Source of the DNA: Akkermansia muciniphila
GTDB lineage: Bacteria > Verrucomicrobiota > Verrucomicrobiia > Verrucomicrobiales > Akkermansiaceae
Direction of reading: 5' to 3'
Length of the DNA stretch: 64,000 bases
NCBI GenBank assembly: GCA_945890645.1
Contig: CAMDCV010000004.1
Coordinates: 62,001 to 126,000, forward strand
The notes under the pieces were generated by a model. The model made no database searches. It was given only the letters and a program-made list of their open reading frames with translations, and was not told where the DNA came from. This document shows positions 2,497 to 47,533 of this stretch, piece by piece. Position 1 is the stretch's first letter, and each line of letters begins with the position of its first letter. The translations under genes and the position numbers were made by a program.

Positions 2497-2532
2497 GGGA
2501 GATGAATGATGAAGAGTGAATGCAAAAAAGTG

Positions 2533-3423: not shown

Positions 3424-3496
3424 GTGAGGTAAATCAAGAATACGTGGTTTTGTGGAGGGGTTGTTACAGAAATAGAATCTGCTGAATGATAAATAT

Positions 3497-9594: not shown

Positions 9595-9680
9595 GTGACA
9601 ACGCAGGATGATTGACGAGTTTTGATTTTTGATTTTGGATTTTTTGTCAGGGGAAATCAAGTATCCAGAATCATCGATCG

Positions 9681-11180: not shown

Positions 11181-11262
11181 GGGAAATGAATGGTGAAGGG
11201 TTCGTGTAGCGTTTAAAAAGGACTGTTGTGGAATTTTGATTGTGGGAATGTTAGTTAGGTTA

Positions 11263-23648: not shown

Positions 23649-24716
23649 CTACCGCTTGACTTGCGCAATAGTGCCGCCGCGCACAAATTCGGACTTCGTT
23701 AGCACTTGCTTTCGGTCCTCCACTCCACGTCGGATGTTTTGCGCCCATAGCAAGACCTGTCGGATGATGTGTTCACTATCCCAGCGAATGTGTGAGATTT
23801 GCGGTTCACACCAAGAAAAGCAGGCATCATGATCATTACAAAATAACGACACATCCTCCGGGATGCTTAGTCCCCTCTGGCTCAGAAAATGTTGTGCCGC
23901 GACGAAAAGTGGCGCTTCATCCAAGAATAATGCGGTAGGCGGCGTGATCCCAAACAACGCGTTCAGTCGCACGTGAAACCCATCAATGCTCTCTTCCCAA
24001 TCGGGAATGTGGTAGTCAGTTGGCTCGATCCCGTTCTCCTTGAGTGCCCAAAGAAATGCTTGTTCGAAGTCTCCCAATGAGGGCAATCTCCTGCGTTTTC
24101 GTGTTAATAAAACGATACGTTTATGCCCAAGATTCGCCACAGTTTTCACCGCCTCTTTCAAAGCAGAAATTTTTTCAGGTCCCACTCCCGCTATCGCTAG
24201 TTCTTGTCTCCTGCCGAATATAGCAAATACCGGCTGCGTTCTACTCGCGAACCACTCCAACACATCGCGAGACCCCGCAAGTATGATCCATGCGTGAACA
24301 TCCATTTTTTTTGCCATCCCCCCGATCTTTTTTAAGTCCATTCCTAACTCCATCATCGTCTTGGATGCCTGCACGATCCGATGACCATCGTTTTCTAAGC
24401 GCATCGTCAGCTCTACAATATAGCGAATCTGCGCATCGACTCTTGCATTCAAAATCAGACCCACACGCAAACCGTATCTGGCATTTTTTCTAGGAAATGA
24501 AGCAATTTTCCGTCTCTTGCGTTTCCCTTGAGGGATCAATAATCCTTCGCTTTCTAACAAAGCAAAAGCCGCATCCACCGTGTCTTTGCCCACTCCCAAT
24601 TCGGTAGCAATGCTGTCACATCCAGGCATCAATTCTTGCCACCGCCCGGCGACCAGGTTCTCACGCAGATACATAGCGACCTGTTCCCGCGCTGAGCGAA
24701 TTTGCCATTTATCCAT
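23649..24716 (-). CDS. GntR-type DNA-binding / LacI-type sensor regulator
   Basis: A 355-residue transcription factor. Residues 1-70 form a GntR-like winged helix (AREQVAMYLRENLVAGRW, then LPSC-equivalent MPGCDSIATELGVGKDTVDA and LLESEGLLIPQG). From about residue 85 a LacI/periplasmic-binding-like domain follows (LRVGLILNA, AWIILAGSRD, HKRIVLLTRKRR, FCNDHDACFSW, and the closing LTKSEFVRGGT). The architecture resembles AraR-like sugar-responsive repressors. It is divergent from the giant PATR/acetylesterase gene at 24869, separated by 152 bp, and is the only regulator recognised in the island. The sensed molecule, presumably a glycan breakdown product, is unknown. Confidence 0.85.
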   Translation of the reverse strand: MDKWQIRSAREQVAMYLRENLVAGRWQELMPGCDSIATELGVGKDTVDAAFALLESEGLLIPQGKRKRRKIASFPRKNARYGLRVGLILNARVDAQIRYIVELTMRLENDGHRIVQASKTMMELGMDLKKIGGMAKKMDVHAWIILAGSRDVLEWFASRTQPVFAIFGRRQELAIAGVGPEKISALKEAVKTVANLGHKRIVLLTRKRRRLPSLGDFEQAFLWALKENGIEPTDYHIPDWEESIDGFHVRLNALFGITPPTALFLDEAPLFVAAQHFLSQRGLSIPEDVSLFCNDHDACFSWCEPQISHIRWDSEHIIRQVLLWAQNIRRGVEDRKQVLTKSEFVRGGTIAQVKR

Positions 24717-24868: not shown

Positions 24869-27800
24869 ATGAAAATCCGCCTCAACCGCTACATCATTAC
24901 TCCGCTCGTCGCATCATTAATTAGTGCGGCGCACGCCCAGCTCCAGTGGGACGCCAACGGACTGACGGCTGGCCAAACCAATGGCGGTGCTGCCTGGCTC
25001 GGTGCCAACCTGTGGTGGAACGGTAGTGCCAACCAAACTTGGACTTCCGGACAAAATGCCACCTTCGGCGGTGCTGCCACGGCTGGCGGTGCTGTGACTC
25101 TCGCCAGTCCGACCGCTGTTGGGTCGATGACCTTCAATCAGTTCACCGGCACGTATACCCTAGGCACCGCTGGTCAAGCGCTAACAATCAATGGCGGAAT
25201 CAACAAGACCGCCACGGCCGCCGCGGTGTCGATGACCGCCAGCCCCATCACTCTCGGCGCAGCCCAGACCTGGACCAACAATTCCTCTGGGGCTTTCACA
25301 ATCACCGTGCCGGTAAACAACGGAGGCCACCTTCTGACGATCGATGGCAACGGCACAACGAACTTCGGCACCGCCACAACGTCTGTAATCTCCGGTGCAG
25401 GTGGCATCACCTACAATGGCACCGGTCGCCTCTTCCTCGGCGCTGGCCAAGTTCCCGCTCATACCTATTCGGGTACGACCACCCTGAACGGCGGCGTCAC
25501 GATGGTTTCCAACAACAACCTCGGCACTGGAGATCTCGTCCTGGATGGGGGTGTCATCGAGAGCTACTGGACCACGAATTTCACCCGTCCGCTCGGGAAC
25601 GATCTGGCGAATACGACCTCGGAGCTTCGCATCATTGGTGGAGTCAGCGGTTTCGGAAACAACAATGGAGGTAATAGCGTCATTCTTGGCAACAACGCCG
25701 GCTTCGAGGCGGTTTGGGGTGCCGCGAATGAAGCGGGCAATACGGCCGCAACCGGCTTTTTTAACCCGTCCACGTTCGTTCTCAACACGCAATACACCCA
25801 AAACACAGGTATCACTTTTCAGAACAAGATCGACCTCAATGGCTCCACGCGCACCATCCAAGCGGGTGCCGGCACTTCGGGGGGGGCCACAGCGACCGTC
25901 AGCGGTGTGATTCGTAACACCCGTGGCACCGCCGCTGGCCTCATCAAAACCGGCCCCGGCTTGCTGGTCCTCTCGGCGGCCAACAGCTACAACGGCGGCA
26001 CCACCATCAATCAAGGCAATCTCCGTTTCGGTTCACTCACCGCGATGCCCTCATCCGGAAATGTGACTGTCAGTGCCGGTGCCACCCTCACCGTCGAGGC
26101 CGGAGCAACAAATGATTGGACTTCCGCCACCAGTGGGGTAGGCACTTTGGGCGGACTATTTTCCGGCCTGGGTAGCGCGGGCACCAGCACGGTGAGTTTT
26201 GCCACCGACTCGACGCTGGGTCTTGAAATGACTGGAAACCTCATCTACTCGGGTGACATCCCCAATCTCGGAACCAACGTTGGTATCACCAAGACCGGCA
26301 CCAGCAGTCTCACCCTCACGGGAAACAACGGCTACACCGGCAGAACCAGGGTTCATGCGGGAGCTCTCTCGTTCAACTCCATCGGCAACGTCGGTGCAGG
26401 TAGCAGCGCCCTCGGTGCTCCGACAAGTGTCGCGAATGGAACCATCAGCGTCGGCTCAGGGGGCACCGCAGCCACCATCACTTATACGGGTAGCGGCCAT
26501 TCCAGCGACCGTGTGATCAATCTCTCTGGTTCAACCGGAGGCGTGACTATTGATGCTTCCGGAAGCGGCGCGCTGACGTTTACCTCTTCGCTTACCGCAG
26601 CAGCAGGTGCCAAAACACTCGCTCTCACCGGTACTAACACCGCCGCCAACACGCTTGGCACCACTGCCATCCCCGGCTTGGCCGAAGTTCTCACCATCAC
26701 GAAAAGTGGTGCTGGCACCTGGCGGATCAACGGTTTCTCGTCACCGAAAAACGTATGGTCGGTTACGGCGGGCACCTTGCTCGTTGCCGGAGGAATCACC
26801 ACCGGCGACCAGAATTTCACCGTTTCCGGCGGCACACTTGCCGGTGTGGGCCCGTTTACTCTCCAGTCCACGAAAAGCCTGACAGTCGGCGCGGCAGGAA
26901 GTCTCTCGCCCGGAAACTCCGGCGTGGGGACCATGGCTGTCACCGGCATCCTTAACATTTCGGCCATGGTCGGAGGTTCTGGCAAACTCAACTTCGAGAT
27001 GGCAGCCCCCGCAGCCAGCGACCGCATCGCCGTCACCGGCACCGCTCAGATCGGCACTGGCCAACTCGGCCTCAACGACTTCGTATTCACCGACCTTGGT
27101 GGCATGACCGCCAATACTTACATTCTCATCTCCACGACCGGAGGCATTACCGGCACGCTGGATCCGGCCAACCGTCTCGGCTCGATCGGTTCGATTTCTG
27201 GAGCCCTTCAAATCAACGGCAACAACCTCGAATTCACCGTCGATTCGGACCTTGATGGAATGCCGGACAGCTATGAACTGGCCAACACCGTTCCACCTTC
27301 CGCCACCGGGCTTGATCCCAATGCGGATACTGAAAACGGCGGCGCGGGTGATGGCCTCACCAACATCCAGGAATATCTCAGAGGCACCAACCCGAACAAT
27401 CCCGACACCGACGCCGACGGTTTCTTGGACGGAGTGGAAACAAATACAGGCACATGGGTCAGTGCGTCAAACACTGGCACCAATCCCCTTGTTTTCGATA
27501 CCGATGGCGACACCATCCGCGACGGCTATGAAACCAACACGGGCAACTTTGTGAGTTCTACCAACACCGGCACTAACCCTAACGATCCGGATACCGACAA
27601 AGATAGTTTGGTTGACAACGTCGAGACTGCCACTGACGTGTTTGTCAGCAAGACAAACACCGGTACCAACCCGAACAATGCGGACACGGACAACGACGGC
27701 GCTGGCGACTGGTATGAAATCACCGCCTCCCTCACTAGCCCGTTCCTCGCGTCCGCGAAGCCGAACATTCCCTATCCACTGCCTGATCCTGACAGCTCCT

Positions 27801-29221
27801 CGGGCAATCCCACCAAGAAGGTCAAAGTTTACATCATGTCCGGTCAGTCGAACATGCTCGGCTTTGGAACGGTGAGCGGCACGGGCACTGAGACACTCGA
27901 GACCATGACTCGCCGTGAAAACAAGTTCCCCAACTTGGTCAATTCCTCAGGCAGCTTTATCTCCCGCCAGGATGTCCAGTATCGCGGTCTCATCTCTGGC
28001 ATCAGCAGCGGTCCGCTCGCACCCGGCTTTGGCACCAACAGTGGCAGAATTGGCCCCGAACTTGGCTTTGGCCAGGTCATGGGCTGGTATCACGACGAGG
28101 CGGTGCTCCTCATCAAAAGCTCTATCGGAAACCGCAGTCTCAGCTGGGACATCCTGCCGGCCGGTAGCCCCTCATGGGTTTACGGAACCACCAACTACCC
28201 CGGCTACGGCGGTTTCGGCACCTGGCCCGTGGGCGGGGTTCCCCCGACCTCAGGCGGTTGGTACGCAGGCAAGGAATTTGATCGCTTTTTCACGCACGAA
28301 AGCGAGTGGGCTCATCCTGACGTTGCTGCGATCAACGTCGTTGATATACTCGACAACTGGGGTGCTGAATATGGTAATTCCGGTAGGCCCTTCGTAGGCC
28401 GTGATTTTGAGATCGCCGGGTTCGTCTGGTGGCAGGGCGACAAGGACCGCTACGACATGGGCCATGCAACTCGCTATGAACAGAACCTCGTCACTCTAAT
28501 CAATAAGCTCCGCGACTATTACACCAACCGCTACCCCGGCAAAGTCGTGCCAAACGCGCCTTTTGTTCTCGCCACACTCGGCCAGACGGCCATTGGTGAT
28601 ACCTCGAGTGCGGCTGACAAGGCAATCCTCGACGCGCAACTCGCCGTTGATGGAACCGCTGGGAACTATCCGCAGTTTGTTGGCAATGTGAAGACGGTCT
28701 ATGCCCATCCGATCAGCGAGGGAGGTTCCTCGAACGGCCACTACGATGGGCGTGCCGGCACCTATATGCTCGTCGGAGACGCCCTGGGTCGTGCCATGGT
28801 CGATCTCCAAGCCGCCGCTAATGGCAACACCTTCGCGACTTGGATGAACAGCTTTGGCGTGGCTCCTGGACTGTCCGGCTTCGATCAGGATGCGGACGGC
28901 GACGGTATTGACAACGGTGTGGAAAACTTCTTCGGAACTGCTCCCAATGCTTCCACTCGTGGTCTGGTCTCCGGTGTGACAAGTGGCAACACTTTTACCT
29001 TCACCCACCCGCAGAATGCCAGTCCGGCCACTGGTGTTACGGCGGTCTACCGCTGGTCGAAGGATTTGACCACTTTCTTCGGCCATGGCCAGACCGATGG
29101 TGCCAACACGACGGTGAGTTTCAATGCCGTCACCAACGGGGGCATCACCACCGTCACCGCCACCGTCACGGGCACGCCAACTGCGAAGTTGTTTGTGGAC
29201 GTGAAAGTGACTCAGAACTGA
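24869..29221 (+). CDS. Giant secreted PATR protein with Ca-binding-like repeats and SASA-type acetylesterase domain
   Basis: A 1450-residue protein with signal peptide (about 1-24, AAHA-Q). Residues about 25-780 are glycine/threonine-rich beta-helix repeats with at least three autotransporter-associated (PATR) units of the form KTG.g.L.Ls..n.Y.GgT (near 356, 471 and 608). At about 792-955 come thrombospondin-type-3-like repeats rich in DTDxDG, four units of exactly 31 residues, likely binding calcium. From about 984 to 1330 is a SASA/sialate-O-acetylesterase-like domain with nucleophile Ser994 in MSGQSNMLG and a late GHYDGRAGTYMLVGDALG. The C-terminal module (DQDADGDGIDNGVENFFG) recurs in related form on the next protein. 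No beta-barrel translocator is seen. Probably a surface or extracellular esterase acting on acetylated glycan. Confidence 0.87.
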   Translation: MKIRLNRYIITPLVASLISAAHAQLQWDANGLTAGQTNGGAAWLGANLWWNGSANQTWTSGQNATFGGAATAGGAVTLASPTAVGSMTFNQFTGTYTLGTAGQALTINGGINKTATAAAVSMTASPITLGAAQTWTNNSSGAFTITVPVNNGGHLLTIDGNGTTNFGTATTSVISGAGGITYNGTGRLFLGAGQVPAHTYSGTTTLNGGVTMVSNNNLGTGDLVLDGGVIESYWTTNFTRPLGNDLANTTSELRIIGGVSGFGNNNGGNSVILGNNAGFEAVWGAANEAGNTAATGFFNPSTFVLNTQYTQNTGITFQNKIDLNGSTRTIQAGAGTSGGATATVSGVIRNTRGTAAGLIKTGPGLLVLSAANSYNGGTTINQGNLRFGSLTAMPSSGNVTVSAGATLTVEAGATNDWTSATSGVGTLGGLFSGLGSAGTSTVSFATDSTLGLEMTGNLIYSGDIPNLGTNVGITKTGTSSLTLTGNNGYTGRTRVHAGALSFNSIGNVGAGSSALGAPTSVANGTISVGSGGTAATITYTGSGHSSDRVINLSGSTGGVTIDASGSGALTFTSSLTAAAGAKTLALTGTNTAANTLGTTAIPGLAEVLTITKSGAGTWRINGFSSPKNVWSVTAGTLLVAGGITTGDQNFTVSGGTLAGVGPFTLQSTKSLTVGAAGSLSPGNSGVGTMAVTGILNISAMVGGSGKLNFEMAAPAASDRIAVTGTAQIGTGQLGLNDFVFTDLGGMTANTYILISTTGGITGTLDPANRLGSIGSISGALQINGNNLEFTVDSDLDGMPDSYELANTVPPSATGLDPNADTENGGAGDGLTNIQEYLRGTNPNNPDTDADGFLDGVETNTGTWVSASNTGTNPLVFDTDGDTIRDGYETNTGNFVSSTNTGTNPNDPDTDKDSLVDNVETATDVFVSKTNTGTNPNNADTDNDGAGDWYEITASLTSPFLASAKPNIPYPLPDPDSSSGNPTKKVKVYIMSGQSNMLGFGTVSGTGTETLETMTRRENKFPNLVNSSGSFISRQDVQYRGLISGISSGPLAPGFGTNSGRIGPELGFGQVMGWYHDEAVLLIKSSIGNRSLSWDILPAGSPSWVYGTTNYPGYGGFGTWPVGGVPPTSGGWYAGKEFDRFFTHESEWAHPDVAAINVVDILDNWGAEYGNSGRPFVGRDFEIAGFVWWQGDKDRYDMGHATRYEQNLVTLINKLRDYYTNRYPGKVVPNAPFVLATLGQTAIGDTSSAADKAILDAQLAVDGTAGNYPQFVGNVKTVYAHPISEGGSSNGHYDGRAGTYMLVGDALGRAMVDLQAAANGNTFATWMNSFGVAPGLSGFDQDADGDGIDNGVENFFGTAPNASTRGLVSGVTSGNTFTFTHPQNASPATGVTAVYRWSKDLTTFFGHGQTDGANTTVSFNAVTNGGITTVTATVTGTPTAKLFVDVKVTQN
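27386..27714 (+). repeat. 93-bp (31-residue) in-frame tandem repeat
   Basis: Within the gene at 24869 four consecutive units start at 27386, 27479, 27572 and 27665. Each begins TNP and carries a D-x-D-x-D calcium-loop-like core (DTDADG, DTDGD, DTDKD, DTDNDG) followed by an ETNTG-type linker. The fourth unit is truncated. The period is exactly 93 bp, indicating expansion by in-frame duplication. Confidence 0.85.
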
Positions 29222-29360: not shown

Positions 29361-32300
29361 ATGAAAACCTACCTCCCGTCATGTTTCCAGACCATAGCCA
29401 CCGCGTGTGCTTTCATTGTTTTTGCTCTCGCTCCCTCCAAGGCCGCCACCATGTCCGCCAGTTCCACAGCGCCAGTGATTGACGATGCGGACATTGCGAA
29501 CTATGGCTATGTGTCCGGCACCGATAAATGGTTCATGGACGCAGCCCGCGGCCAGTCGATCACCACCGGCGGCGCGGCCGTGCGGCTCAAGTCCATCAGC
29601 TATCAGGTCAGCGAGGAAAACGGCGCGACACCCACCAAGACCTACACCGTGCGCGTCGGTAGAATATCGGGCACCAATTTCACCCAGATCCACTCGGAGA
29701 CGGTGACCCAGAACTTCTCCTGGACCGGCGGGCAGTTCATGACCTGGATCTTCGATACTCCTGTCCTTCTGGAACCCTACACGACCTATGGCATCGATGT
29801 CGGAATGACCAGCTCCACCAGCGGCTGGAATACAGGCATCCCCTACATCAATGTCACCGCCGACGATTTTGCGGGCGGCACCAGTTACTCAACGGGAGCG
29901 GCAGGGATCGGCACCGCATCCATCTCCTCCTCAATCGCTTCCGACCGCATCTTCCACCTCGACATTGAGCGCCCGCTAGGTCCCGTTTTCTCGCTTGTTT
30001 CACTCAGTCCGGCGGACAATGCCACTGGTGCATACGCCTCCCGCGAGATCGTCATGACCTTCAGCCAGAACGTCGCGCCCGGCAGCGGAAGTCTCACCAT
30101 CCGCAACCTCACCGACAACACCAGCGCCGCCCTCGCACCGAACGACAGTCGCATCACCTACGATCAGAATGTTGTCAGGATCATTCCTACCGGACTGCTC
30201 ACTTGGAACAAGAACTATGCCATCCGCTACGACGCCGGCTTTTTCCTCGGCGACGCCAGCGCGCCGATTCCCGCGATTACCGACGACACCACTTGGAACT
30301 TCGCCACCATCGCCAGCGATCCGCTGCTCTCCGCCATAGCCGCGCTCAAATCCCACATCCTCGGCACCACCACTCTGACCGGCCCTCAGATCTCTGCTCA
30401 CAAAACCACCATTGATGACCAGCGCCAGCGCTTCGCGGAAAACACTGACATTATCAACGCGGTGTTCGACCTGATCACCACCTATGATACTGCCAAAGGT
30501 CCTATTTTCGTCAGCGGCTTCGCTAACAACTCCACCAGCTTCGACCGCAGCGTCACCACTGGCACCGCCAAAAACTCCATCAACCCGGAAAACTACCATT
30601 GGGTAATCTACACCGTCATGCAGCACGCGATGGACCTGATTTACACTTCGGAAAACCTGGCGAAATACGAGTCCACCCTCACCAATTACAAGTTCGGCAG
30701 CCACACGAGTTTCCCTGGTCCCTGCTCTCCGCCTGCCAACCCGTCCAACACCCACACCGTCCAGATCAACGGCAGTTTCCCCGCCACCTTCGGCCGCGAC
30801 ACGCTGATGTGGACCACCCCCGCTCGCAAACCCACCGGCACCTATCTCGCACCTGGCACCATCGCCACTGTTACCGTGCCGCCCGCGCTTGTGAACGCGG
30901 GCTACAAGGTCCGCGTCGGCGCGCACTCATGGGATCTATCCGCACGCCGCCCGGTCAATCGCCTGGAGCGGGCCACCCGCCTCTATTCCATCAACTCCAC
31001 CACTACCAAGATCGCCAGCCCTTACGGCGGAGGTATCTACATCGAGGTGCCTTATCTCGCGAACGCGGGTGTCGTCAGCGTCAGCGTCACAGGAGCCGTT
31101 AGGTCCCCCTATTTCTCCGCGAAAACCTTCCACCAGACCACCGCAACCGAATGGGACAGCGAGAGGGCCAATCCAGCACCATGGGCGGATTTTCAGTCGG
31201 ACAAGTTCATGTTCCAGGTGCCGCGCAAGTGGGTCTACAACATGACCGGCGCACAGGCGGTCCAACTGATGGTCGATTGGGACAAAGCCATGGACGCCAT
31301 CAATGACCTTATGGGATTCGACCGCAATCGCGGCAAGGAAACCATGTATTGCCAGACCGATGTCATCCTTCGCTCCTCCGTCCACGCTCCCGGTTATCCG
31401 GCCGTCAACGTCACGTCAAACGTGAACTCGGAGGTCAGCCCTGTCGGTTATGCCGGCAACTATCTCGTCCGCGGTCCCGCCACCACACTCACCGCCGCCA
31501 ACATCGAGTTCCATGAGCAAGGTCACGGCTATTTTTTCCCTAAATTTGGCGGCGAGAACGAATCCAACGTCAACCTGCTCCAGCCCGCCATGCTCTATCG
31601 CGGGTTTGGAAAAACCATTGATGAAGCCCAGAACGGCTCGTTTGGCAGCGGCAAGCCTTTCATCACCGTTGACAATACCGCCATCGCCTGGATGTGCGTT
31701 TTCAGTTTCTCGCCCAACGAGATACCGATGCAAGACGGGGAAAAGGACTACCAACACAAAGGTCACGCCAAATGGATGGACATCGCCCGCATCTACGCCA
31801 CGCCCTCCAACCCCAACGCAGGCTGGGAGAAACTCGATGCTTATTGGCGGTCCTTCATGCTCGATGATGCCAACAACGTCACTTACGGCAACAGCACCGA
31901 CGACTACCTCCTGCGCCTCTCCCGCGCCGTCGGCAAGGACATCCGTCCGCTCTTCCATTTCTGGGGCATTCATCCGCAAAACCCCTCCGCCCTCGCTGCT
32001 GCGCTCGCTGCGGAAAACCTCTACCCGGATCCCGCCATCAAAGCCAAACTCCTCCATTACAAATCCATCGTCCCTGCTAACAACGCCGCCTTTCGCACTT
32101 TCATGCTTAACTGGTGGGGCAGGCAACCCAGCGTCACCGGCTATTGGGAGGAAACCGATCACGCCATGCAGTGGGATAGCACTCTGGATGCCGACGGGAG
32201 CAACAATCCCAATGTCCGTCCTAACGGTAGCATCTACGTCGAAACCAGCGCCACCGAAATCCGCAACCGCATCGATGAACTCGTCGAACTCTATTTCGCC

Positions 32301-35300
32301 GGCTCCATCACTCCAAATCCGATGACCTTCGCCACCGCTCCGGCCGTGGTGAATTCCACCACCGTCGGCATGGCTGCTGCCACCGCCACTGCGGGCACCG
32401 GTCCCATCCAGTATTTCTTCGATGAAACCTCCGGAAACCCCGGCGGCGATGACAGCGGCTGGCAATCTAGCCCGATCTATCAGGACAGCGGACTTACCCC
32501 GGGGCTCACCTATAGCTACACCGTCAGTGCCCGCGACGGAGTCCCGATTACGACCGATCCATCCGCCGCCTTGAGTGTCACGCCCACTGCGTCAGGAGAC
32601 ATCACGCCACCGACGCCTGCCACGATGACCTTCTCCACGCCACCCGTCACCGTGGACCAGGAAACCATCACCATGACCGCCTCCACCGCCAGCGACATCA
32701 ACGGCGTCGAGTATTACTTCGAAAACACCACCAACAGCACCAACAGCGGCTGGCAGGACAGCCCAGTCTATACAGAGACCAACCTTGCTCTCACCACTCT
32801 ATACACCTACCGCGTCCAAGCGCGCGACAAGAGCGCCAACCAGAACGCCACCGCCTTCTCCGCACCAGCCTCCGCCAACACCGCCAACCTGCCCGACGTG
32901 ACGTCACCGCAGGTCGTGACCTTCTCTCCGGCAGGCGGCTCCAGTGTCTCCAACCTCGCCAGCAACCTCGTCGTCACCTTCGACGAACCCGTGATCAAAG
33001 GCACCGGCTCCATTACCCTGAAGAACCTCAGCAACGCCTCCGAAGTCGTCTTCGACATTAACGATCCCGCCGTCACCATTTCTGGAAGTTCGATCACTCT
33101 CAATCCGCCTGCCGACCTGCTCTACGAGAAAAACTACGCCGTCCAGATTTCCAGCGGCGCGGTGGCGGATGCATCCAACAACCCCTCAATCGGAATCAAC
33201 GACGACACCACCTGGGCTTTCGTCACCCTCCTCGCCAATCCCATCGTCAACTCGGGCGGCCCATACGTCGTCCCGACTGGCAGCTCACTCTCGCTCAACG
33301 GCAGCGCGATCCCCTCCACCGGCGCGACGATCGCCCCCACCGGTTACGCGTGGGATATGAACCGTGACAACGTCTTCGGTGAAGTCACCGGATCTACTCC
33401 CACTGCCATCAGCGATACGGTTCTCATGGGAACCTACGGCATGGTGCTCGGGCAAAACACCATCAAACTCAAGGTCACCGACTCCCTCGGCAACAACACC
33501 ACCGTCACCACCATCGTCAAAATCGGTGCCAATATGTCATGGGACGCTAACGGATCATCCGCCAATCACACTGATGGCGCAGGCGCGTGGCTTGATGCTA
33601 ACAAATGGCGTGACAACGGAGTGAACACCACTTGGATCTCCGGCTCGTCTGCCATCTTCGGCAACAACGGCAACGGCGGCGTCGTCACCCTCGGAGCCAA
33701 CACCAGCGTCGGCTCGCTCACCTTCAACTCCTTCAACGGCACCTACACCATCTCCGGCGGCGGCGTTCTCACCATCAATAACGGTTTCACTAACAACTCC
33801 ACCGCAGGAGCCGTATCCATCTCCACGCATGTGATTCTAACAGCCCCGCAAACCTGGGGCGGCACCTCCTCTGGCGCGCTCACCTTCACAGGCGGCATCA
33901 ACAACAACGGCCATACCCTGACCCTCGGCGTTAACGGAAACATCCCCATGAACGCCGCCACTAACATCATCTCCGGTAGCGGTGGGCTCACAAAAAGTGG
34001 CTCGGGAACTCTCACCCTCGGTGGTAATCCAGCCCCCGCCCACACCTATTCCGGCCCCACCACCATCAATGGTGGAGTTGTGATGGTCGCCGGTAACAAA
34101 ACCGTCGGCAACATGACGCTTAATAACGCCATGCTCACCGACTACTATCGTGCCACCACATCGTTCACCGGCGGCTTGGGCACGGGTAACAACCAGATCC
34201 AGATTTACGGCGACAGCGGTTTCGGTGGCGGAAATGGAAACTCCACTTGGAGAATCGGCGCAGCGGGTTCCGTGCTGACATGGGGCAGCACCCACTTCAA
34301 TCCGACCTCGTTGAAATTTCTTACGTCCGCCGACAACATGGGCCCATCCACCTACGGCCAAGCGTCACTGGACAACGGGCTCAACCTCAACGGAGCCGCA
34401 CGCACGATCAGCGTCCTCGCAGCCACCGGAGCGAATGCCATCACCAGCTCATGGGGAAGAATCAACGGCGTCATTTCCGGCAGCGGCGGCAGCCTCATCA
34501 AGACCGGTGGCGGTAACCTCATCCTTTCCAGCGCCAACACCTACGACGGCGGCACGACGATTCAGGCGGGCATGCTCCAACTTGGCAGCGCCACCTCACT
34601 CGGTGCCACAAGCGGCCCACTGACTGTCAACGGCGGAATTCTCAATCTACAGGACCAAAACGTTTCGGTCGGAAATCTAACCGGCAGCGGCGGCGCCATC
34701 GCGAACAATGCCAGCAACGCCCGCACTTTTACCATTGGCACGGGCAACGGCACCGGCGGCATCTATCAAGGTGTCATCGCTAACAAAACCGGCAGCGGCA
34801 CTGGTAGTCTCGCCCTCACGAAGACCGGCAGCGGCACCATCACCCTCGCTGGCTCCAACACTTATACCGGAGCCACTATCATCAACGGCGGCGGCACCTT
34901 GTTCCTCACCGGAGCCACGCAAAGCACCAGCGCCATCAGCTTTGTCGCCAACAGCTCGCTCGGCCTCGCTATCGGCTCTCCAGTCACGGCCACTGCTGCT
35001 GCCGTGAACTTTGCCAACGGCCGCGTGTCGGTCACTGGCTCACCCACCGCCGCCAGCCACACACTGCTCACGGCTGCATCCTTCACCGGCACCCCATTAC
35101 TCGCGGCGGCGATCCCAGGCTACGAACTCGTTGTTGTAGGCAATCAACTCTTGCTCAACCAAGTCGTGATCGATCCCTACGCGGCTTGGTCTGGCGGACT
35201 AACCTTCAATGAGGACGCCAACAATGACGGTATCACCAACGGACTCGCTTGGGTTCTCGGTGCCGCCTCTCCTCATGCCTCCGCAACGGAACTTTTGCCC

Positions 35301-35588
35301 ACCATCGATCGAATCACCGATCCCAACGGCAAAATGCTCTTCATTTTCCGTCGTGCTACGAATGCCAAGAACTATGCAAACGCTTCCATCCTGGTCGAAT
35401 ACGGTAGCAATCTCGGATCTTGGATCACCGCCGTTCATCAAGGCACCTCAGCCAACCAGATCACCATCAGTGAACAGACCAATGGCTTTGGTGTAGGCAT
35501 CGACCGCGTCACCGTCGCTCTACCCGCTAACCTCGCCAACGACGGAAAAATCTTCGCCCGCCTCAAAACCGTAATGTTAGCCCCTTAA
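29361..35588 (+). CDS. Giant secreted M60-like metallopeptidase with Ig-like and PATR repeats
   Basis: A 2075-residue protein with signal peptide (about 1-29, SKA). Order: an N-terminal beta-sandwich (30-210); an Ig-like Big_5/SbsA-type domain (about 213-320); a large catalytic region in which H718-E-Q-G-H722 and a downstream Glu732 (GGENES) fit the HExxHx(8,28)E signature of M60/enhancin-like gluzincins; two fibronectin-III-like domains (about 985-1180); a second Big_5-like domain (about 1183-1290); a PKD-like stretch; then PATR repeats (near 1541, 1710 and 1815) and a C-terminal module (DANNDGITNGLAWVLG). M60-like enzymes are known to cleave mucin-type O-glycoproteins. Residues about 1391-1580 are homologous to the start of the preceding protein. 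It is 139 bp downstream of that gene and likely co-regulated. Confidence 0.85.
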   Translation: MKTYLPSCFQTIATACAFIVFALAPSKAATMSASSTAPVIDDADIANYGYVSGTDKWFMDAARGQSITTGGAAVRLKSISYQVSEENGATPTKTYTVRVGRISGTNFTQIHSETVTQNFSWTGGQFMTWIFDTPVLLEPYTTYGIDVGMTSSTSGWNTGIPYINVTADDFAGGTSYSTGAAGIGTASISSSIASDRIFHLDIERPLGPVFSLVSLSPADNATGAYASREIVMTFSQNVAPGSGSLTIRNLTDNTSAALAPNDSRITYDQNVVRIIPTGLLTWNKNYAIRYDAGFFLGDASAPIPAITDDTTWNFATIASDPLLSAIAALKSHILGTTTLTGPQISAHKTTIDDQRQRFAENTDIINAVFDLITTYDTAKGPIFVSGFANNSTSFDRSVTTGTAKNSINPENYHWVIYTVMQHAMDLIYTSENLAKYESTLTNYKFGSHTSFPGPCSPPANPSNTHTVQINGSFPATFGRDTLMWTTPARKPTGTYLAPGTIATVTVPPALVNAGYKVRVGAHSWDLSARRPVNRLERATRLYSINSTTTKIASPYGGGIYIEVPYLANAGVVSVSVTGAVRSPYFSAKTFHQTTATEWDSERANPAPWADFQSDKFMFQVPRKWVYNMTGAQAVQLMVDWDKAMDAINDLMGFDRNRGKETMYCQTDVILRSSVHAPGYPAVNVTSNVNSEVSPVGYAGNYLVRGPATTLTAANIEFHEQGHGYFFPKFGGENESNVNLLQPAMLYRGFGKTIDEAQNGSFGSGKPFITVDNTAIAWMCVFSFSPNEIPMQDGEKDYQHKGHAKWMDIARIYATPSNPNAGWEKLDAYWRSFMLDDANNVTYGNSTDDYLLRLSRAVGKDIRPLFHFWGIHPQNPSALAAALAAENLYPDPAIKAKLLHYKSIVPANNAAFRTFMLNWWGRQPSVTGYWEETDHAMQWDSTLDADGSNNPNVRPNGSIYVETSATEIRNRIDELVELYFAGSITPNPMTFATAPAVVNSTTVGMAAATATAGTGPIQYFFDETSGNPGGDDSGWQSSPIYQDSGLTPGLTYSYTVSARDGVPITTDPSAALSVTPTASGDITPPTPATMTFSTPPVTVDQETITMTASTASDINGVEYYFENTTNSTNSGWQDSPVYTETNLALTTLYTYRVQARDKSANQNATAFSAPASANTANLPDVTSPQVVTFSPAGGSSVSNLASNLVVTFDEPVIKGTGSITLKNLSNASEVVFDINDPAVTISGSSITLNPPADLLYEKNYAVQISSGAVADASNNPSIGINDDTTWAFVTLLANPIVNSGGPYVVPTGSSLSLNGSAIPSTGATIAPTGYAWDMNRDNVFGEVTGSTPTAISDTVLMGTYGMVLGQNTIKLKVTDSLGNNTTVTTIVKIGANMSWDANGSSANHTDGAGAWLDANKWRDNGVNTTWISGSSAIFGNNGNGGVVTLGANTSVGSLTFNSFNGTYTISGGGVLTINNGFTNNSTAGAVSISTHVILTAPQTWGGTSSGALTFTGGINNNGHTLTLGVNGNIPMNAATNIISGSGGLTKSGSGTLTLGGNPAPAHTYSGPTTINGGVVMVAGNKTVGNMTLNNAMLTDYYRATTSFTGGLGTGNNQIQIYGDSGFGGGNGNSTWRIGAAGSVLTWGSTHFNPTSLKFLTSADNMGPSTYGQASLDNGLNLNGAARTISVLAATGANAITSSWGRINGVISGSGGSLIKTGGGNLILSSANTYDGGTTIQAGMLQLGSATSLGATSGPLTVNGGILNLQDQNVSVGNLTGSGGAIANNASNARTFTIGTGNGTGGIYQGVIANKTGSGTGSLALTKTGSGTITLAGSNTYTGATIINGGGTLFLTGATQSTSAISFVANSSLGLAIGSPVTATAAAVNFANGRVSVTGSPTAASHTLLTAASFTGTPLLAAAIPGYELVVVGNQLLLNQVVIDPYAAWSGGLTFNEDANNDGITNGLAWVLGAASPHASATELLPTIDRITDPNGKMLFIFRRATNAKNYANASILVEYGSNLGSWITAVHQGTSANQITISEQTNGFGVGIDRVTVALPANLANDGKIFARLKTVMLAP

Positions 35589-41048: not shown

Positions 41049-42401
41049 TCATTCGGTTTCCACCGCTGTATGGGTCACTCCGGACAATTTGTAGAGTCGA
41101 AGGGTGGAGGGTGCAGGGAGTGGTGGTTGCCGTGGGCGATCTCGATTCGCGCCGAGGGTTTCCCACTGGAGAATGTAGCGGACGCCTGGTGTGCCGCAGG
41201 TGCCGGAATCACCGGCGCGCTTGATCGCCATATCAGGAAAGTCACTTTCGATTTTCCCCAACGAGCGGGGCAAGCGTTGTGAGGTCGAAATAGGCTTGTC
41301 TAACAGATTGAGTGTTTTTGCATCGAAGCTAAGCGATCCGGATCCGTAGTCTTTGTGATTGTAGCTGACGGTGAAAAGATCGGAGTCAGAGATTTGTAAA
41401 TCGCCGATGCTAATGCCGATGAATGGCATGGAACCGCCGCCACTGAAGGTGATGGGCTGTTGCCATTCGGTGAGCACGCGGTGTTGCCATTTGCCGTTTT
41501 GGGGACGGGCGGCGTAGATCTGCATGTGACCCTTGGTATCGGATTTATGGTAGGCGAAGACAGGTTTGTTTTGTGCATCGAAGGCCATGCGGTGTCCACC
41601 ATTGATGATGCCACCGCCGGGCGGGATCGCATCTACTATGAGCATAGTTTGATCGAAGCGTATGGGTAGGTTGACTTTTTCACCAAAGGCGGATTCCCAT
41701 GCCATCAGGTCTTTGCTGCGGGCATAGGAGAGATGTTGATTCGTAGCGCAATCGGGTGTGTCACGCCACACCCAGTGGACGTGAAACCATCCATCGGGAC
41801 CGCGAGTGGGTCCTGAGGGGTAGGCATTGCGTTTGCCCTCGCCATCGAAGAGGGGGGTATCGAGCAGGCGCGACCATGTTTGGGTCTTTGCATCATAGCG
41901 GTTGTACAGATTGATTCCATTGCCCGATCCTCCGTGCCGGTAGGTGAAAATGAGACGCCCTTCGTGATCTTCGAAGAATCGTGGGTAGGTGACGCGATCC
42001 TCGAGGAGCCCGGTCATTTTGGCGGGCGCAAGAGTAGTGATGTCGCCAGGTTTTTGGGTGCGAAAATAAATCAGCGGCACGCAATGCATGTTTCCTGAAA
42101 CGTGGAGATGTCCTACGCTGTCGAGAGCCATGGTAACGTAGTTGTGCGAGTCCCAGAGAATTTGTGAAGGCAATTTCTGATAAACCCATTGGGTGGAATC
42201 AAGCGATCGGGCAGCGACCGTCATGTTTCGATCGGCATCGTAGTAAGCCACGTACTGGCGATTGGGTGTGGTCAGTAATTTAAATCCGACGGGGAATTCA
42301 GCAGTGACTTTGGCGACCTCCAATGTTTGTGCTATAACGAGGTCCTTAGCCACGGCGCACACCGTGGTCACGGTGGCAATGAGGTAGAGCAAAAATTTCA
42401 C
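41049..42401 (-). CDS. Secreted BNR_4 beta-propeller protein (PL24/PL25/GH145-like fold)
   Basis: A 450-residue protein with a signal peptide (about 1-18). Blades of a seven-bladed propeller are visible: VAYYDADRNMTVAARSLDS, WDSHNYVTMALDSVGHLHVS, FTYRHGGSGNGINLYNRYD, FHVHWVWRDTPD and PVFAYHKSD. The SHN...GHLHVSGNMH histidines match the BNR_4 family, which includes ulvan lyases (PL24/PL25) and the rhamnosidase family GH145. That suggests cleavage next to uronic acid or rhamnose, but a binding role is possible. It lies between a sulfatase and a SASA-type esterase, 54 bp from the latter. Confidence 0.75.
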   Translation of the reverse strand: MKFLLYLIATVTTVCAVAKDLVIAQTLEVAKVTAEFPVGFKLLTTPNRQYVAYYDADRNMTVAARSLDSTQWVYQKLPSQILWDSHNYVTMALDSVGHLHVSGNMHCVPLIYFRTQKPGDITTLAPAKMTGLLEDRVTYPRFFEDHEGRLIFTYRHGGSGNGINLYNRYDAKTQTWSRLLDTPLFDGEGKRNAYPSGPTRGPDGWFHVHWVWRDTPDCATNQHLSYARSKDLMAWESAFGEKVNLPIRFDQTMLIVDAIPPGGGIINGGHRMAFDAQNKPVFAYHKSDTKGHMQIYAARPQNGKWQHRVLTEWQQPITFSGGGSMPFIGISIGDLQISDSDLFTVSYNHKDYGSGSLSFDAKTLNLLDKPISTSQRLPRSLGKIESDFPDMAIKRAGDSGTCGTPGVRYILQWETLGANRDRPRQPPLPAPSTLRLYKLSGVTHTAVETE

Positions 42402-43340: not shown

Positions 43341-44024
43341 CTACTGAGGCGGATTTTCTGCTTTTGTATCCACAAAATGGCGGAGGCGCACGAGGCCGTT
43401 GTCTGGATTCGGAAAGAAGAGGACGAGTTCGCGCTGGGTAGCGTTGACCGACCACGATGTCTGCCTTACGACGCGTGCTGGCGTCCCTTCGGCGAGTGCC
43501 AGGATGCGCACAGGGATCGCGTTTTCTGTTGCGCTTACTCGAATCGATTCGGAGGCGCTGGGTTTAAGCAAAGTTGTCTTACCGGCAATTTCCGCTTGTA
43601 CCGTAGCTTGAGAGAAGTTAACGAGGCGGAAAGATCCGTAGGGGAAATCGGCTTCTGAAGTGGTGAAGGCTTGGTATTTTTCCAGATCCGCGCTGGGCGA
43701 AAAAATAATCAGAGAGGCTGTGGATTTGAGGGTAGTGGTCGCGAGGGGAGCGAGTGCTTCTTTGGCACTTGCGTCGGCTGCCGTGGCAAAAAATTCAAGC
43801 GCAGCGACGCCTTTGTGTTCGATGGGTAGAGAAAATACTCGTGTGTTGAGAGGAATTTCAATGGGTTCCTTACCAACTGCGGTTCGCAACCAAAGAGTGT
43901 GATGGTCTTTCACGATGTCGAGTGCGGCGACGCGGATGCTCCAAGATTTCTCCTCTATCTGCGCGGCAAGGGGTGAGACAGATAGTGCGAAAAATTTCAA
44001 TAGAAGGATGGTGAGTGTGCGCAT
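43341..44024 (-). CDS. Secreted hypothetical protein
   Basis: A 227-residue protein of unknown family, with a signal peptide (about 1-21, SPLAA-Q) and then alternating short strands and no cysteines, suggesting a beta-rich periplasmic or surface protein. Its ATG overlaps the TGA of the large pseudopilin-like gene (TGATG), so the two are translationally coupled and probably form one functional unit. Two similar beta-sandwich-like halves may be present (about 25-110 and 115-215), but this is uncertain. Confidence 0.7.
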   Translation of the reverse strand: MRTLTILLLKFFALSVSPLAAQIEEKSWSIRVAALDIVKDHHTLWLRTAVGKEPIEIPLNTRVFSLPIEHKGVAALEFFATAADASAKEALAPLATTTLKSTASLIIFSPSADLEKYQAFTTSEADFPYGSFRLVNFSQATVQAEIAGKTTLLKPSASESIRVSATENAIPVRILALAEGTPARVVRQTSWSVNATQRELVLFFPNPDNGLVRLRHFVDTKAENPPQ

Positions 44025-47000
44025 CAGATTTCTGAGGGTAAAAGCCAGCGGAAGGAGATGATCTCGAACCGCCGTCCGAAGCTGCGGTTGATCGCTGAAG
44101 AAAGGTTCACGGTGGCGATCTCGGGCAAGTCCTTTGCATCAAGGTAATCAGGACTACGGCGGACCACTGCCTCGCACCAACTTCTTGCGCGGATTGTGCC
44201 ATTGGCATCGATGGATTGCCCGTAGCCTCGGATGCGGAAGGTGTCATCGCGAGGGGTGATCATATTGCCGACGCGCTTGAGTAAATCGGCTTGGGTGAGG
44301 TAGCCGGGGATGCCGGCGAAACGTGAGCCGGTGGCGGCTTGGGGGAAGGGCAATCCCCAGCCCGCGATCTTAGTGGTGGCGATGAAATCATCGCCGCTCT
44401 TGAAGCGACCGTTGATGGATTCCGCGCTGGCTGACTCAGGTTTGCGGCCGAGGGTTTCGTCCCAATCAATGGCAGCTTGAAGCGCACCGCGCACACCGGT
44501 CTCATCGGTGGCAAGGCGGCGGTTGATGAAATCGGCGAGGTTAAGGAACGGCCCGCGCTCTTTCACTTGGCGCACGCATTCGCGCGCTAGGCGATCAATC
44601 TGCTGCGGTGTGAGATGGCGCACGCCGAGCCAAGCAGCGGGATCGCCGGCGTTTTGTCCTTCTTTCGGCGAGGCTGGTAGGGAAAAGCGGGAAAGGATCA
44701 CACGATCTTGTGGCGCGACATCGCTGCGGACATTACCGGATTGGGGATCGATGGAAATGATTGTTTTGTCCTGCGATCCAGAGAGGAAGGCCTTCCAGGC
44801 ATCAACGGACGTAGAGTTGATGTTAAAAGCTCCCTCAATGGTTAAGTAGCGGGCGGCGATGCGATGGGCTTCAGCCTTGGGGAGTGCACCGCTGAGTAGG
44901 CGGCTCTGGAGTGTTGTTGTGCCGGACGATACGCGCCACGGGATGAGGTGGGGATTTTGCGTGGGCGCTACGCCAGTCCAGAATTCGCGTACGACTTTTT
45001 CCATGTTCCGCCCGGTTTGAAAAAGTCCTTGATCCTCCCGCGTGATACCAGAGCAGAACCAATCGTCCCAGAGTGCGTCATTGTTAAGATAAGCGTGGTC
45101 ATGGAAGTCGCGTAAGAGTTGCATTTGGAGGGCGGTGCCGCGGCAGGCGGCATCGGGGACATCCTGATAGATCGCATCGCCTGGAATGAGGGGGTGGGCG
45201 AAGGAGTTTCCGATCCCCAGCGCTTGGTTCGCGGAAATATCCCAGAGGTGCCGCCCCGTATTGAAAATGCGGGTGTCTGCCGGGTTCAGCTTGAAGTGCA
45301 TGAGCGAGGCGAGAGAAGTAACGGGTACGAGTGGGAATTCATTCGTCACCATGTTGGGCTGACCGGGCCAGCGCGAATTTCCCGGCGAAATCGCGCTGCC
45401 GATGTAGGCGCGGTTGTTAGCAGGATCGAAGTCGGGGTTGAGGGAGTTGCCGCTGCCGGTTTCGATTTGAACGTGGTACTGGGAAAGTCCGCGCATGCGC
45501 GGTGTGGCTTCACCGTACATGGCACGTTGATTGGCCGGGTTGGCGTGGATGAAATTGCGGCAGCGGGAATCGTGTTCTGCGTAGCCCGCACCGGTGTTGC
45601 GCAGATCTTGTCCGGATTTCTGTACGAACTGGAAATTGGCGAAGGGCACGCGCTGGGCGGAGTTGGAAAAAAGGATACGCTTGCCTGCCGTGTCTTCAGC
45701 GAGATATATGGGATTGCCATCTTGGACGGGATTCGCTGCCATCTCGTTGTAGCGCTGGTTTTCTCCCGTCTGGGCATTTCTCACCGTCCAATACATTTGA
45801 TATTGTCCACCGTGGTCGGTGCGTTGGTCGTCCAAGCGCATCGCCATTTCCACTCGCGCGGTGCCGGGCAGGCTAGTCATACCATTCAGACCCACTTCGA
45901 AACCACCGCCCGCGTCGGGAGCTTGGTAGCCGGGATAGAGCTCGGCATGGAGGAAATCATTGGAATTGGCAAACCCCGTAACTGCTGAGTAGATGCGAGT
46001 TTCTCCGGGTTTTAAGATGATGGGAACTGTGGTCTGCGCTGGCCCTTCCATGGGATAGATATTCAATTGGAAATTACCATTGCTACGTCGCAATTGGGTC
46101 CAGTTGACCTTCATCACACCATCCACATAGGCCTTGTATTTCAGCGCGCCGGGTGTGATCTGAATCCACAGGCGCGGCGAGTGTAATGTGACGTTGTAAG
46201 GATTCCAAAGCACAACCACCGGGTTTACTCCCAGTTTATAATCAAAGGTGCCAGGCGTTGTGGTGGAGGCCATGCGCCGAGTGGAAAAAACGAGCATCAG
46301 GCGCGTGACGATGGGAGTGCGGCCGATGCCAAAATAATCAAGGTTCTGGCGGTGCCAATTGAAATTAATGTTCGGTTGTGTTGCCGTTCCCCAGACGCCT
46401 TTGCCGTTGAAAGGAAGAGGGAAGCTATCTGCTGCCACTTCATCTCCACCACCGCGATAGAGTTGGTAGTATTGATGGAGCTTGTACCAGGAGGGGAAAT
46501 TGTTGTTTTGAGCATAAAATGGGGTGGGGATGTGGCCTGTAAAGGGTCGGATCGAAGCGTGGTTACCATTCGGATTGGCGAGCGAATAGGTGCCATATTC
46601 GTTCGGCGGTCTCTCCATTTCCAGCAGCAAGTTGAGATCCTTTTTTAAGCCACCGTGGCGAACATTTGCCGCTAGCCCCGTTGAGTCCACAGTGAGGTCA
46701 TGAAAACGCGAGCGCAGTTCGGTGCGGAAATTGAGATCGTCCACGCCTAATCCCAAAGTGGGCAGAGTGATGGAACGATTGATGAGCAAGGGATCGGTGG
46801 GTGCTTTCGCCAATCCGGCCAGCGAAGAAGTTTTTCCATTCGGCCATTGAGAGCGGTCGTGGAGGCGCGCGGTGTTATTCACCGCTTCCGGCGGTGTAAG
46901 TGCGACGTGGGCCTTTTGGTTCTCGCCAGTGATCCACCAAGCATAGTGCCCATTGCCGTTTGTTTTCACTATAGGTGCCCTTACTGGTTCGGTGGCAACG

Positions 47001-47533
47001 CCGGAAGCACCTGCGGGGAATCCCTTTACCATCTCCACTGACTCGGGCAGAGAGGTGCCGCTCACGAGTTCCATATCATCGCGCGCAACGGGATTGGGAT
47101 GGGAAACGAGCCAGCGCCGGAACTTTGAACTACGACCTTTATCGTAAGTGTATCGGATTTCCGGATTGTTCAGCCAATCCGTCCATGAGTTCCATGCACC
47201 CAACCAATGGGGGTGAGAAATGCCATCCGGCGCGGTGGTAGAATTGTCTTCATCGAGGATCGCCGCGCGCGCGCTGACTCGCTGGTCCGGGCCGAGTTCT
47301 TTTTGTAGATCGCCAATCGCCAGCATCAGCGCCATGCGAGCGTTGGAACGGGCCTCGGCTTCGTGCTTGACCGTTGTTGTTGTCCGCAATGCTACAGAAG
47401 ATAGCGATAGCAAGCCGACGGCGATGATTACCAACAGCATGACCAGAGAAATCGTTATAATTAAAGTAAATCCGCCTCGACGCGAAAGGGCATGAGAAGC
47501 CGCGGGAATTCCGGAGTATATTCGAATCTTCAT
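44024..47533 (-). CDS. Large PilX/pseudopilin-like protein (Verru_Chthon cassette A type)
   Basis: An 1169-residue protein starting with a type IV prepilin-like leader: SRRGG-FTLI followed by a 22-residue hydrophobic helix and then VKHEAEARSNARMALMLAIG. The conserved Glu5 of mature pilins is absent (isoleucine). This N-terminus, the length and the SNARMALMLA segment fit the verrucomicrobial family I recall as Verru_Chthon cassette protein A (TIGR02600-like). The large C-terminal part has many WQ/WG-rich beta segments and a helical end with GWGLPFPQAATGSRF. Relatives form cassettes of minor pilins; here only the coupled 227-residue gene accompanies it. Possible roles are a surface fibre or secretion-system pseudopilin for exporting island proteins. 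Confidence 0.7.
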   Translation of the reverse strand: MKIRIYSGIPAASHALSRRGGFTLIITISLVMLLVIIAVGLLSLSSVALRTTTTVKHEAEARSNARMALMLAIGDLQKELGPDQRVSARAAILDEDNSTTAPDGISHPHWLGAWNSWTDWLNNPEIRYTYDKGRSSKFRRWLVSHPNPVARDDMELVSGTSLPESVEMVKGFPAGASGVATEPVRAPIVKTNGNGHYAWWITGENQKAHVALTPPEAVNNTARLHDRSQWPNGKTSSLAGLAKAPTDPLLINRSITLPTLGLGVDDLNFRTELRSRFHDLTVDSTGLAANVRHGGLKKDLNLLLEMERPPNEYGTYSLANPNGNHASIRPFTGHIPTPFYAQNNNFPSWYKLHQYYQLYRGGGDEVAADSFPLPFNGKGVWGTATQPNINFNWHRQNLDYFGIGRTPIVTRLMLVFSTRRMASTTTPGTFDYKLGVNPVVVLWNPYNVTLHSPRLWIQITPGALKYKAYVDGVMKVNWTQLRRSNGNFQLNIYPMEGPAQTTVPIILKPGETRIYSAVTGFANSNDFLHAELYPGYQAPDAGGGFEVGLNGMTSLPGTARVEMAMRLDDQRTDHGGQYQMYWTVRNAQTGENQRYNEMAANPVQDGNPIYLAEDTAGKRILFSNSAQRVPFANFQFVQKSGQDLRNTGAGYAEHDSRCRNFIHANPANQRAMYGEATPRMRGLSQYHVQIETGSGNSLNPDFDPANNRAYIGSAISPGNSRWPGQPNMVTNEFPLVPVTSLASLMHFKLNPADTRIFNTGRHLWDISANQALGIGNSFAHPLIPGDAIYQDVPDAACRGTALQMQLLRDFHDHAYLNNDALWDDWFCSGITREDQGLFQTGRNMEKVVREFWTGVAPTQNPHLIPWRVSSGTTTLQSRLLSGALPKAEAHRIAARYLTIEGAFNINSTSVDAWKAFLSGSQDKTIISIDPQSGNVRSDVAPQDRVILSRFSLPASPKEGQNAGDPAAWLGVRHLTPQQIDRLARECVRQVKERGPFLNLADFINRRLATDETGVRGALQAAIDWDETLGRKPESASAESINGRFKSGDDFIATTKIAGWGLPFPQAATGSRFAGIPGYLTQADLLKRVGNMITPRDDTFRIRGYGQSIDANGTIRARSWCEAVVRRSPDYLDAKDLPEIATVNLSSAINRSFGRRFEIISFRWLLPSEI

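Follow-up and report, generated by a model that had tools for sequence, protein, structure and literature searches.

A divergent M60-like peptidase gene beside an acetylesterase giant in a sulfatase-rich stretch of Akkermansia muciniphila

The stretch analysed here (64,000 nucleotides, positions 62,001 to 126,000 of contig CAMDCV010000004.1 of Akkermansia muciniphila assembly GCA_945890645.1, hereafter “the window”) contains an open reading frame (ORF) at 29361..35588 on the plus strand that encodes, from ATG to stop, a giant protein of 2075 amino acids. This protein is a real, divergent M60-like enzyme, ordinary in kind but uncommon in its branch and in its partner, a second giant with an acetylesterase domain. 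The family, the conserved ligand residues, the recurrent adjacency to the esterase and one fusion of the two are directly established. As an explanation for the whole, we consider it reasonably probable that a divergent M60-like zinc peptidase acts, with its acetylesterase partner, on acetylated glycoproteins.

An M60-like enzyme with a conserved zinc site

A preliminary description of the window had assigned the ORF to the M60/enhancin family because of its HEQGH motif, and this assignment was borne out. In Pfam, PF13402 (Peptidase_M60) scored 40.6 bits against a cut-off of 25.8, and PF17291 (M60-like_N), which lies ahead of the catalytic domain, scored 58.9 bits against a cut-off of 23. These scores, like those of the PATR repeats described below, are well beyond chance. 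The PF13402 match is partial, as its best stretch ends at position 116 of the 275 in the profile, and the catalytic half therefore needed a separate test. Two relatives, L037 and L036, match the same profile over positions 1-274 and 2-275. When an alignment of the divergent subfamily was compared with an alignment of ordinary M60 proteins using hhalign, a probability of 100 and an E-value of 8.9e-49 were obtained; HEQGH aligned to HELGH of the ordinary proteins, and E734 fell on the glutamate in their GEVTVN motif.

The subfamily alignment (A1) has 16 rows: the window protein and 15 relatives (15 confirmed out of 21 stretches), 14 of them titled as Verrucomicrobia taxa and one as Phycisphaera. 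The ordinary alignment (A2) has 14 proteins; one comes from L047, and the other 13 belong to the order of the window genome. Forty loci were examined for A2, and 13 of the 18 in which HExGH was read on the plus strand were taken; L018 (HEYGHICD, without the usual Gln) and the near-identical L050, L051, L052 and L056 were omitted, and the 22 loci without the motif on the plus strand were not read in reverse. The scores for two NCBIfam families fell below their cut-offs: SslE/AcfD (NF037974) reached 40.4 of 800 bits and ImpA (NF038322, M88) 34.4 of 250 bits (E 7.9e-9). Membership of the ORF in the M60-like family is, in sum, near certain.

The HEQGH motif occupies residues 718-722 (31512..31526), and all 16 aligned members keep H718, E719, G721, H722, E734 (31560..31562) and an Asn that follows E734 by four positions. 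A larger count of 26 members was made with the window protein, the 15 relatives and ten further places from a phylum-wide search, omitting L021, L022 and L029, which are duplicates or copies truncated by a contig end. The position 12 residues after the last His, that of E734, is Glu in 25 of the 26, and the remaining member, L047, has a four-residue insertion and its Glu at +16. The preliminary description had pointed to a glutamate ten residues on. Such a residue exists (E732), but the +10 position is Glu in 22 members only (Asp in two, Asn in one, Gln in one), and the conserved glutamate is E734 at +12, the likely third zinc ligand. The arrangement agrees with the gluzincin motif HEXXHX(8,28)E as given in excerpts of PMC3267712: HEQGH is followed by 11 residues and E734, a spacing found in 25 of the 26 members, while the 26th has 15 residues.

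These counts bear on whether the protein might be a catalytically dead M60 relative that serves as a glycan-binding adhesin. It is true that the divergence is concentrated in the catalytic half, where the best Pfam stretch breaks off, and that a genome with a 58% relative (G021) gave no PF13402 match. However, all 26 sequences, including the one with the insertion, retain the His, Glu, His and third Glu. An inactive site would have no need of such conservation, and we regard the adhesin as highly improbable.

The fold was examined with two AlphaFold models, one built from the 16 rows and a shorter one from 17 rows, with one ordinary M60 protein added. Foldseek returned only M60/M88 proteins at ranks 1-19 with the first model (7 at E<=0.001) and at ranks 1-21 with the second (18 at E<=0.001). 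Its top matches were IMPa, 4fca/5ev7, ZmpA/B/C and AM0627, to which VIA added BT4244; 4fca and 5ev7 are titled as of unknown function and were counted as M60-like by sequence. In the VIA lists, M60/M88 proteins fill ranks 1-17 (first model) and 1-19 (second model), and in the second list Z drops from 8.6 to 5.6 past rank 19. The predicted models thus support an M60/M88 fold. A PF13402 search and a structure prediction were among the checks that the preliminary description had proposed; they yielded a profile match and M60/M88 proteins as top folds, so the family reading stands.

Association with an acetylesterase giant

Directly upstream of the M60 giant, on the same strand and after a gap of 139 nucleotides (nt), lies a gene for a second giant (24869..29221, 1450 amino acids), which combines an SGNH/SASA esterase domain (residues 962-1329, nt 27752-28855) with a PATR stalk. 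PF03629 scored 40.2 bits in this protein against a cut-off of 24.8 (E 3.8e-10), and each of the five proteins in the esterase alignment has GQSN and a late His. The SASA name is not to be taken as an indication of sialic-acid specificity.

Adjacent esterase and M60 giants on the same strand, with gaps of ~73-208 nt, are found in the window, L034 (~73 nt), L036, G137 and G515, while L037 has a single ORF of 3462 amino acids with both SASA and M60 matches. Pairing or fusion is thus detected in six of the seven relatives that carry the HEQGH...PKFGG motif, the window included, and L035 is the exception. The order of the genes varies: the esterase comes first in the window, L034 and G515, and the M60 gene comes first in L036 and G137. 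Since the order differs, the adjacency either outlasted rearrangement or arose more than once. The ten further places were then examined, and the two with the motif, G137 (a one-contig genome) and G515 (whose kinship is given as same phylum only), both show the pair. On the M60 tree, the pairing label needs three changes, compared with a shuffled mean of 5.7, and one of 500 shuffles was as low, a figure that near-copies inflate. A hand estimate puts chance adjacency at ~1% per locus; it drew on the number of esterase matches in the six paired genomes, 7 to 26 in each, and it assumes a gene number and unclustered genes, the latter being untrue. The esterase profile was built from five proteins, of which four are adjacent to an M60 gene and match by construction; their adjacency had first been seen by blastp.

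On the other side of the esterase gene there is a divergent regulator (23649..24716, minus strand) with a GntR-like DNA-binding end and a LacI-type sugar-sensor end. PF13377 scored 61.4 bits, above its cut-off, and PF00392 26.3 bits, just below its cut-off of 27. At L113 and L117, a GntR/LacI-type regulator likewise lies near esterase giants, but M60 is absent; L117 belongs to G294, the genome without the pair, and a stretch of 17 kb there contains three matches to the esterase profile.

Both the fusion and the common strand speak for a functional link, and we think it fairly probable that the esterase and the M60 enzyme are coupled. Among the listed titles and abstract openings of open-licence PubMed Central (PMC) papers, none dealt with coupling of M60 with an acetylesterase or with M60 in such bacteria. 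Accessory domains of 415 M60-like proteins have been tabulated, and the part of the table covered contains no esterase (PMC3267712).

Several observations weigh against the deacetylating pair. The motif group was defined only once the first pairs were known, and G137 and G515 were examined after the pattern had been noticed. No esterase of this type is present in the 26.8-kb contig of L035. Matches to PF03629 are common (41 in the 3.82 Mb of the same genome), and the six M60-adjacent esterases are scattered on a 15-row esterase tree, where the pairing label needs five changes and 347 of 500 shuffles were as low. In G137 and G296, the nearest kin of the window esterase are copies away from M60. 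This, together with the tree, led us to reject the idea that the pair is strictly orthologous. None of the nine loci L038-L046 has a partner as far as the contigs reach (one weak match of 175 amino acids in L045; only L039, L041 and L042 have at least 7 kb on either side). Likewise, no esterase-profile match was found at the eight further places without the motif; one of these, G515b, is a contig of 3 kb and too short to be judged, and at G502b a different SASA protein lies at a distance of 4.5 kb. The same type of regulator also accompanies esterase giants at loci that lack M60. Since PF03629 proteins are many and the adjacent ones form no clade, the adjacency could partly reflect a common clustering of giants. 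Either M60 genes acquired esterase neighbours on several occasions, which would argue for coupling, or giants cluster and adjacency is less telling.

The M60 side adds to these points. On the M60 tree, the relatives with the motif do not form a single clade: six fall into a starred group (99/99), and L036 joins the partnerless group (93/91, not starred). The usual Asn-His-Gln after HExGH is replaced by GYFF, AYFF and similar sequences (F725 in the window protein). The Gln three residues after HExGH, invariant in the 14 proteins of A2, is absent from the window protein, although the Gln of HExGHxxQ is a trait of the chosen A2 set and not a published defining feature, and L018 lacks it too. Finally, the mean pLDDT (predicted local distance difference test) of the two models is 64.9 and 64.1, with values below 50 around HEXXH in both; the active site was no better in the shorter model with the ordinary M60 protein. 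The structural matches have root-mean-square deviations of 4.9 to 9, and with values this high the models support the family, not the details.

Some of these features would fit a general or self-directed peptidase that acts independently of glycans, in shedding, in processing of the cell’s own surface giants or in adhesion, with the esterase as an incidental neighbour. The loss of Asn-His-Gln, residues that are invariant in the YQxKGHAK stretch but without counterpart in the ordinary M60 profile, a stalk type common to both giants, a multi-copy tail and the abundance and scatter of the esterases all lean that way. Against it stands the glycan dependence of the known relatives: excerpts of PMC9513282 state that the M60-like (M60/M98) peptidases of Akkermansia and OgpA need an O-linked glycan, that M60-like O-glycopeptidases cleave N-terminal to the glycosylated residue, and that IMPa is an O-glycopeptidase. 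The helical domain, beta-sandwich and peptidase also align with IMPa in the predicted model, and adjacency to the esterase is found in six of seven motif relatives. A peptidase of this general kind is in our opinion unlikely, while glycopeptidase activity of the M60 giant is likely.

Sulfatase genes around the pair

The M60 giant had been described as lying within a sulfatase island, and the island is real. The window holds 16 whole sulfatase genes, all on the minus strand, and one more across the left edge. The 16 (1183-59145) are S1-type; 13 fit (C/S)-x-(P/A)-(A/S/T/G)-R, and the other three read CRPSL, CSVSR and CAVAR. From the pairing with sulfatases a glycoprotein target had been proposed. 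The glycoprotein target is retained on the basis of the family; the pairing is not conserved in the six other relatives with the motif, and we rejected the sulfatase partnership as the main context of the gene.

The proposal can be worded as follows: sulfatases desulfate a sulfated glycoprotein or proteoglycan, whose protein core then becomes the target of the M60 module. Besides the 16 genes of the window, clusters near other members speak for it. In one outer genus, a stretch of 20 kb holds 4 sulfatases in G517, 5 (one partial) in G444 and 5 in G502a, and in the sister group G021 C66 has 4 in 40 kb. The remaining sister-group stretches, G001 C12 (80 kb) and G021 C15 (40 kb), have one each, and the four other outer places (of seven, in three genera) have none. 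The genomes of the genus of G517, G444 and G502 hold at least 92 sulfatases each, two of them at least 98. The M60 relatives inside these sulfatase clusters, L107, L108 and L110 (G517, G444 and G502), are more distant and short (633-641 amino acids).

In contrast, the six other motif relatives have 0 or 1 sulfatase in the 14 to 79 kb fetched: none in G293 C20 (L034, 79 kb), G294 C227 (L035, 26.8 kb), G137 (40 kb) and G515 (14.3 kb), and one each in G295 C36 (L036, 55.5 kb) and G296 C111 (L037, 59.8 kb). G137 is poor locally despite at least 99 sulfatases in its genome, one of which lies just outside the 40-kb stretch, at 362 kb. The counts in these fetched stretches were made by blastp with the sulfatases of the window, and strongly divergent ones could escape. 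In the window, the M60 gene lies on the strand opposite to the island genes on both flanks, as does the esterase-M60 pair as a unit. Sulfatases are abundant in the same genome (57 matches), and freshwater Verrucomicrobia are known to have sulfatase surroundings in which pectin-lyase-like and PSCyt genes also lie (PMC5615132). The recurrence of sulfatase neighbours at four other loci leaves the sulfatase idea weakened, not dead; we consider it quite unlikely. The acetylesterase giant is the better-conserved partner.

Other neighbours include pectate-lyase-like proteins and PSCyt and DUF1552 genes. A BNR_4 protein at 41049-42401 resembles the BT3686-type alpha-L-rhamnosidase model (202 bits, cut-off 700) and possibly points to glycans of rhamnose and uronic acid. 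A protein of 292 amino acids (55326-56204) resembles part of the Amuc_1098 pilus outer-membrane family, and an 877-amino-acid relative of it lies ~13 kb to the right of the window on the same contig. A protein of 1169 amino acids (44024-47533) has a weak Verru_Chthon cassette/pseudopilin-like N-terminus, and relatives of it are present in the fetched stretches of G293 C20, G137 and G556.

Distribution of the subfamily

PF13402 matches are found in 171 of 288 genomes of the order, and the genome of the window has one. The divergent subfamily (E 1e-60) is rare: of the 387 genomes and 197 genera of the phylum, 11 and 7, respectively, have a member, this genome included. The 58% relative in G021 had no PF13402 match in the survey of the order, so profile surveys can miss part of the group. 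Genus g3, of the same family, has small, M60-rich genomes. Scans with the subfamily (A1) and ordinary M60 (A2) alignments found no viral relatives. At L047, an ordinary M60 gene (1881-4127) and a member of the divergent subfamily (7904-11605) lie 3.8 kb apart on one contig. The titles of the 15 relatives give a pond as habitat in four cases and Lac Pavin in one; the rest are uninformative, and none names a sponge.

Domain layout of the M60 giant

The protein begins with a likely signal peptide (residues 1-29, 29361..29447, read by eye in the translation), and it is probably secreted. An N-terminal domain follows (31-205, 29451..29975; limits by eye) for which no Pfam or NCBIfam match was listed at E<=10, and then an immunoglobulin (Ig)-like domain (~211-315, 29991..30305), where the best CopC stretch spans 211-271 and the outer limit was set by eye. 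The helical domain that precedes the peptidase (~320-440, 30318..30680) is taken from the predicted model, in which the helical part ahead of the beta-sandwich aligns by VIA with IMPa from residue 302 onward. The M60-like_N beta-sandwich (PF17291, E 5.7e-16) covers residues 466-577 (30756..31091). Peptidase_M60 (PF13402, E 2.8e-10) starts at 578 with a best stretch of 578-692 (31092..31940 for the domain), and its end at ~860 was set by comparison with relatives.

Two fibronectin-like repeats (983-1165, 32307..32855), identified by eye and without a Pfam match, a Big_5 Ig-like domain (1179-1289, 32895..33227) and a PATR-type stalk (1390-1901, 33528..35063) follow. The Big_5, CopC and PATR matches are all above the Pfam cut-offs; for PATR, PF12951 scored 70 bits (cut-off 27) and TIGR02601 71.8 bits, also above its cut-off. 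The stalk is 39% identical to that of the adjacent esterase giant. The C-terminal end is a multi-copy tail (1934-2075, 35160..35585), with 14 matches in the same genome at E<=0.001, counting itself. PATR repeats are a trait of autotransporter (type V secretion) passengers, which also have a C-terminal membrane barrel; in the window protein, no barrel family is among the Pfam and NCBIfam matches listed at E<=10, where weak matches may be filtered.

The peptidase had been portrayed as embedded in a PATR giant. Within the protein, the M60 module (~466-970) lies apart from the PATR-like stretch (~1390-1901). PATR matches are absent from L036 and L037 in Pfam, and PATR is therefore accessory: a separate, non-conserved stalk and not a part of the enzyme.

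Discussion

Among the closest known proteins is IMPa of Pseudomonas aeruginosa (MEROPS M88; 5kdv, 5kdw, 5kdx and 7jtv), the top match of each Foldseek list and of one VIA list, and second to fourth in the other VIA list. The likeness spans the helical domain (in the first model), the beta-sandwich and the peptidase, and in the last part there is weak profile similarity (RPLFHFWGI versus RPTFALWGI, E 0.058). The window protein differs from IMPa in sequence (13 to 18% identity, with an ImpA score below the cut-off), in its giant multi-domain context and in its esterase neighbour. Akkermansia AM0627 (7sci, 7yx8) shares the modelled fold (Z 8.4 to 11.7), with 10 to 13% identity in structural alignments; ordinary M60 proteins of the order share HExGH and the Glu with the window protein, at ~25 to 35% identity. 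Unlike these, the window protein lacks the Gln of HExGHxxQ. BT4244 of Bacteroides thetaiotaomicron and ZmpA/B/C of Clostridium perfringens (fold Z 5.6 to 10.1) also combine M60 with accessory domains: ZmpB has CBM32 and CBM51, according to PDB titles, whereas the window protein has Ig-like domains, the PATR stalk and an esterase partner. That partner matches the SASA/sialate O-acetylesterase family PF03629 by score, GQSN and late His, but the closest solved sequence, 2apj, was found at E 0.039, and sialic-acid specificity lies in the family name only.

A mechanism can be proposed for the deacetylating pair. HExGH and E734 would bind zinc, with E719 as the catalytic base, and the enzyme may cut the peptide chain beside a glycan, as M60/M88 enzymes do. 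The esterase giant would first remove the O-acetyl groups of the glycans and so let the peptidase recognise or reach its site. The Ig-like domains, the PATR-type stalk and the C-terminal tail, which is common to other giants, might hold the enzyme at the surface or away from it, and both giants would probably be controlled by the GntR/LacI-type regulator in response to released sugar. In nature, the pair probably acts on a glycoprotein or proteoglycan that carries O-acetyl groups and is met in the environment, of algal, cyanobacterial or animal origin. As for mucin, no BNR_2 sialidase (the one sialidase model used) was found in this genome, while the control matched 5 of 14 genomes. A GH101 search gave no match, but neither did its control, so that it carries no weight. 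We rejected a mucin reading from genome content, as this absence does not favour a sialic-acid-rich mucin.

In broader terms, we tentatively envisage a distinct M60 subfamily of environmental Verrucomicrobiota, one branch of which, repeatedly paired and once fused with O-acetylesterases, would form a two-step machine that deacetylates and then cuts, with partners recruited more than once and outside animal hosts; we hold this generalisation to be possible rather than probable. An enzyme pair of this kind might, in our opinion, help in the analysis of O-acetylated glycoproteins. If the generalisation is true, it would suggest that glycan-dependent proteolysis also serves free-living polymer degraders, and acetylated glycoproteins would be a substrate pool for them.

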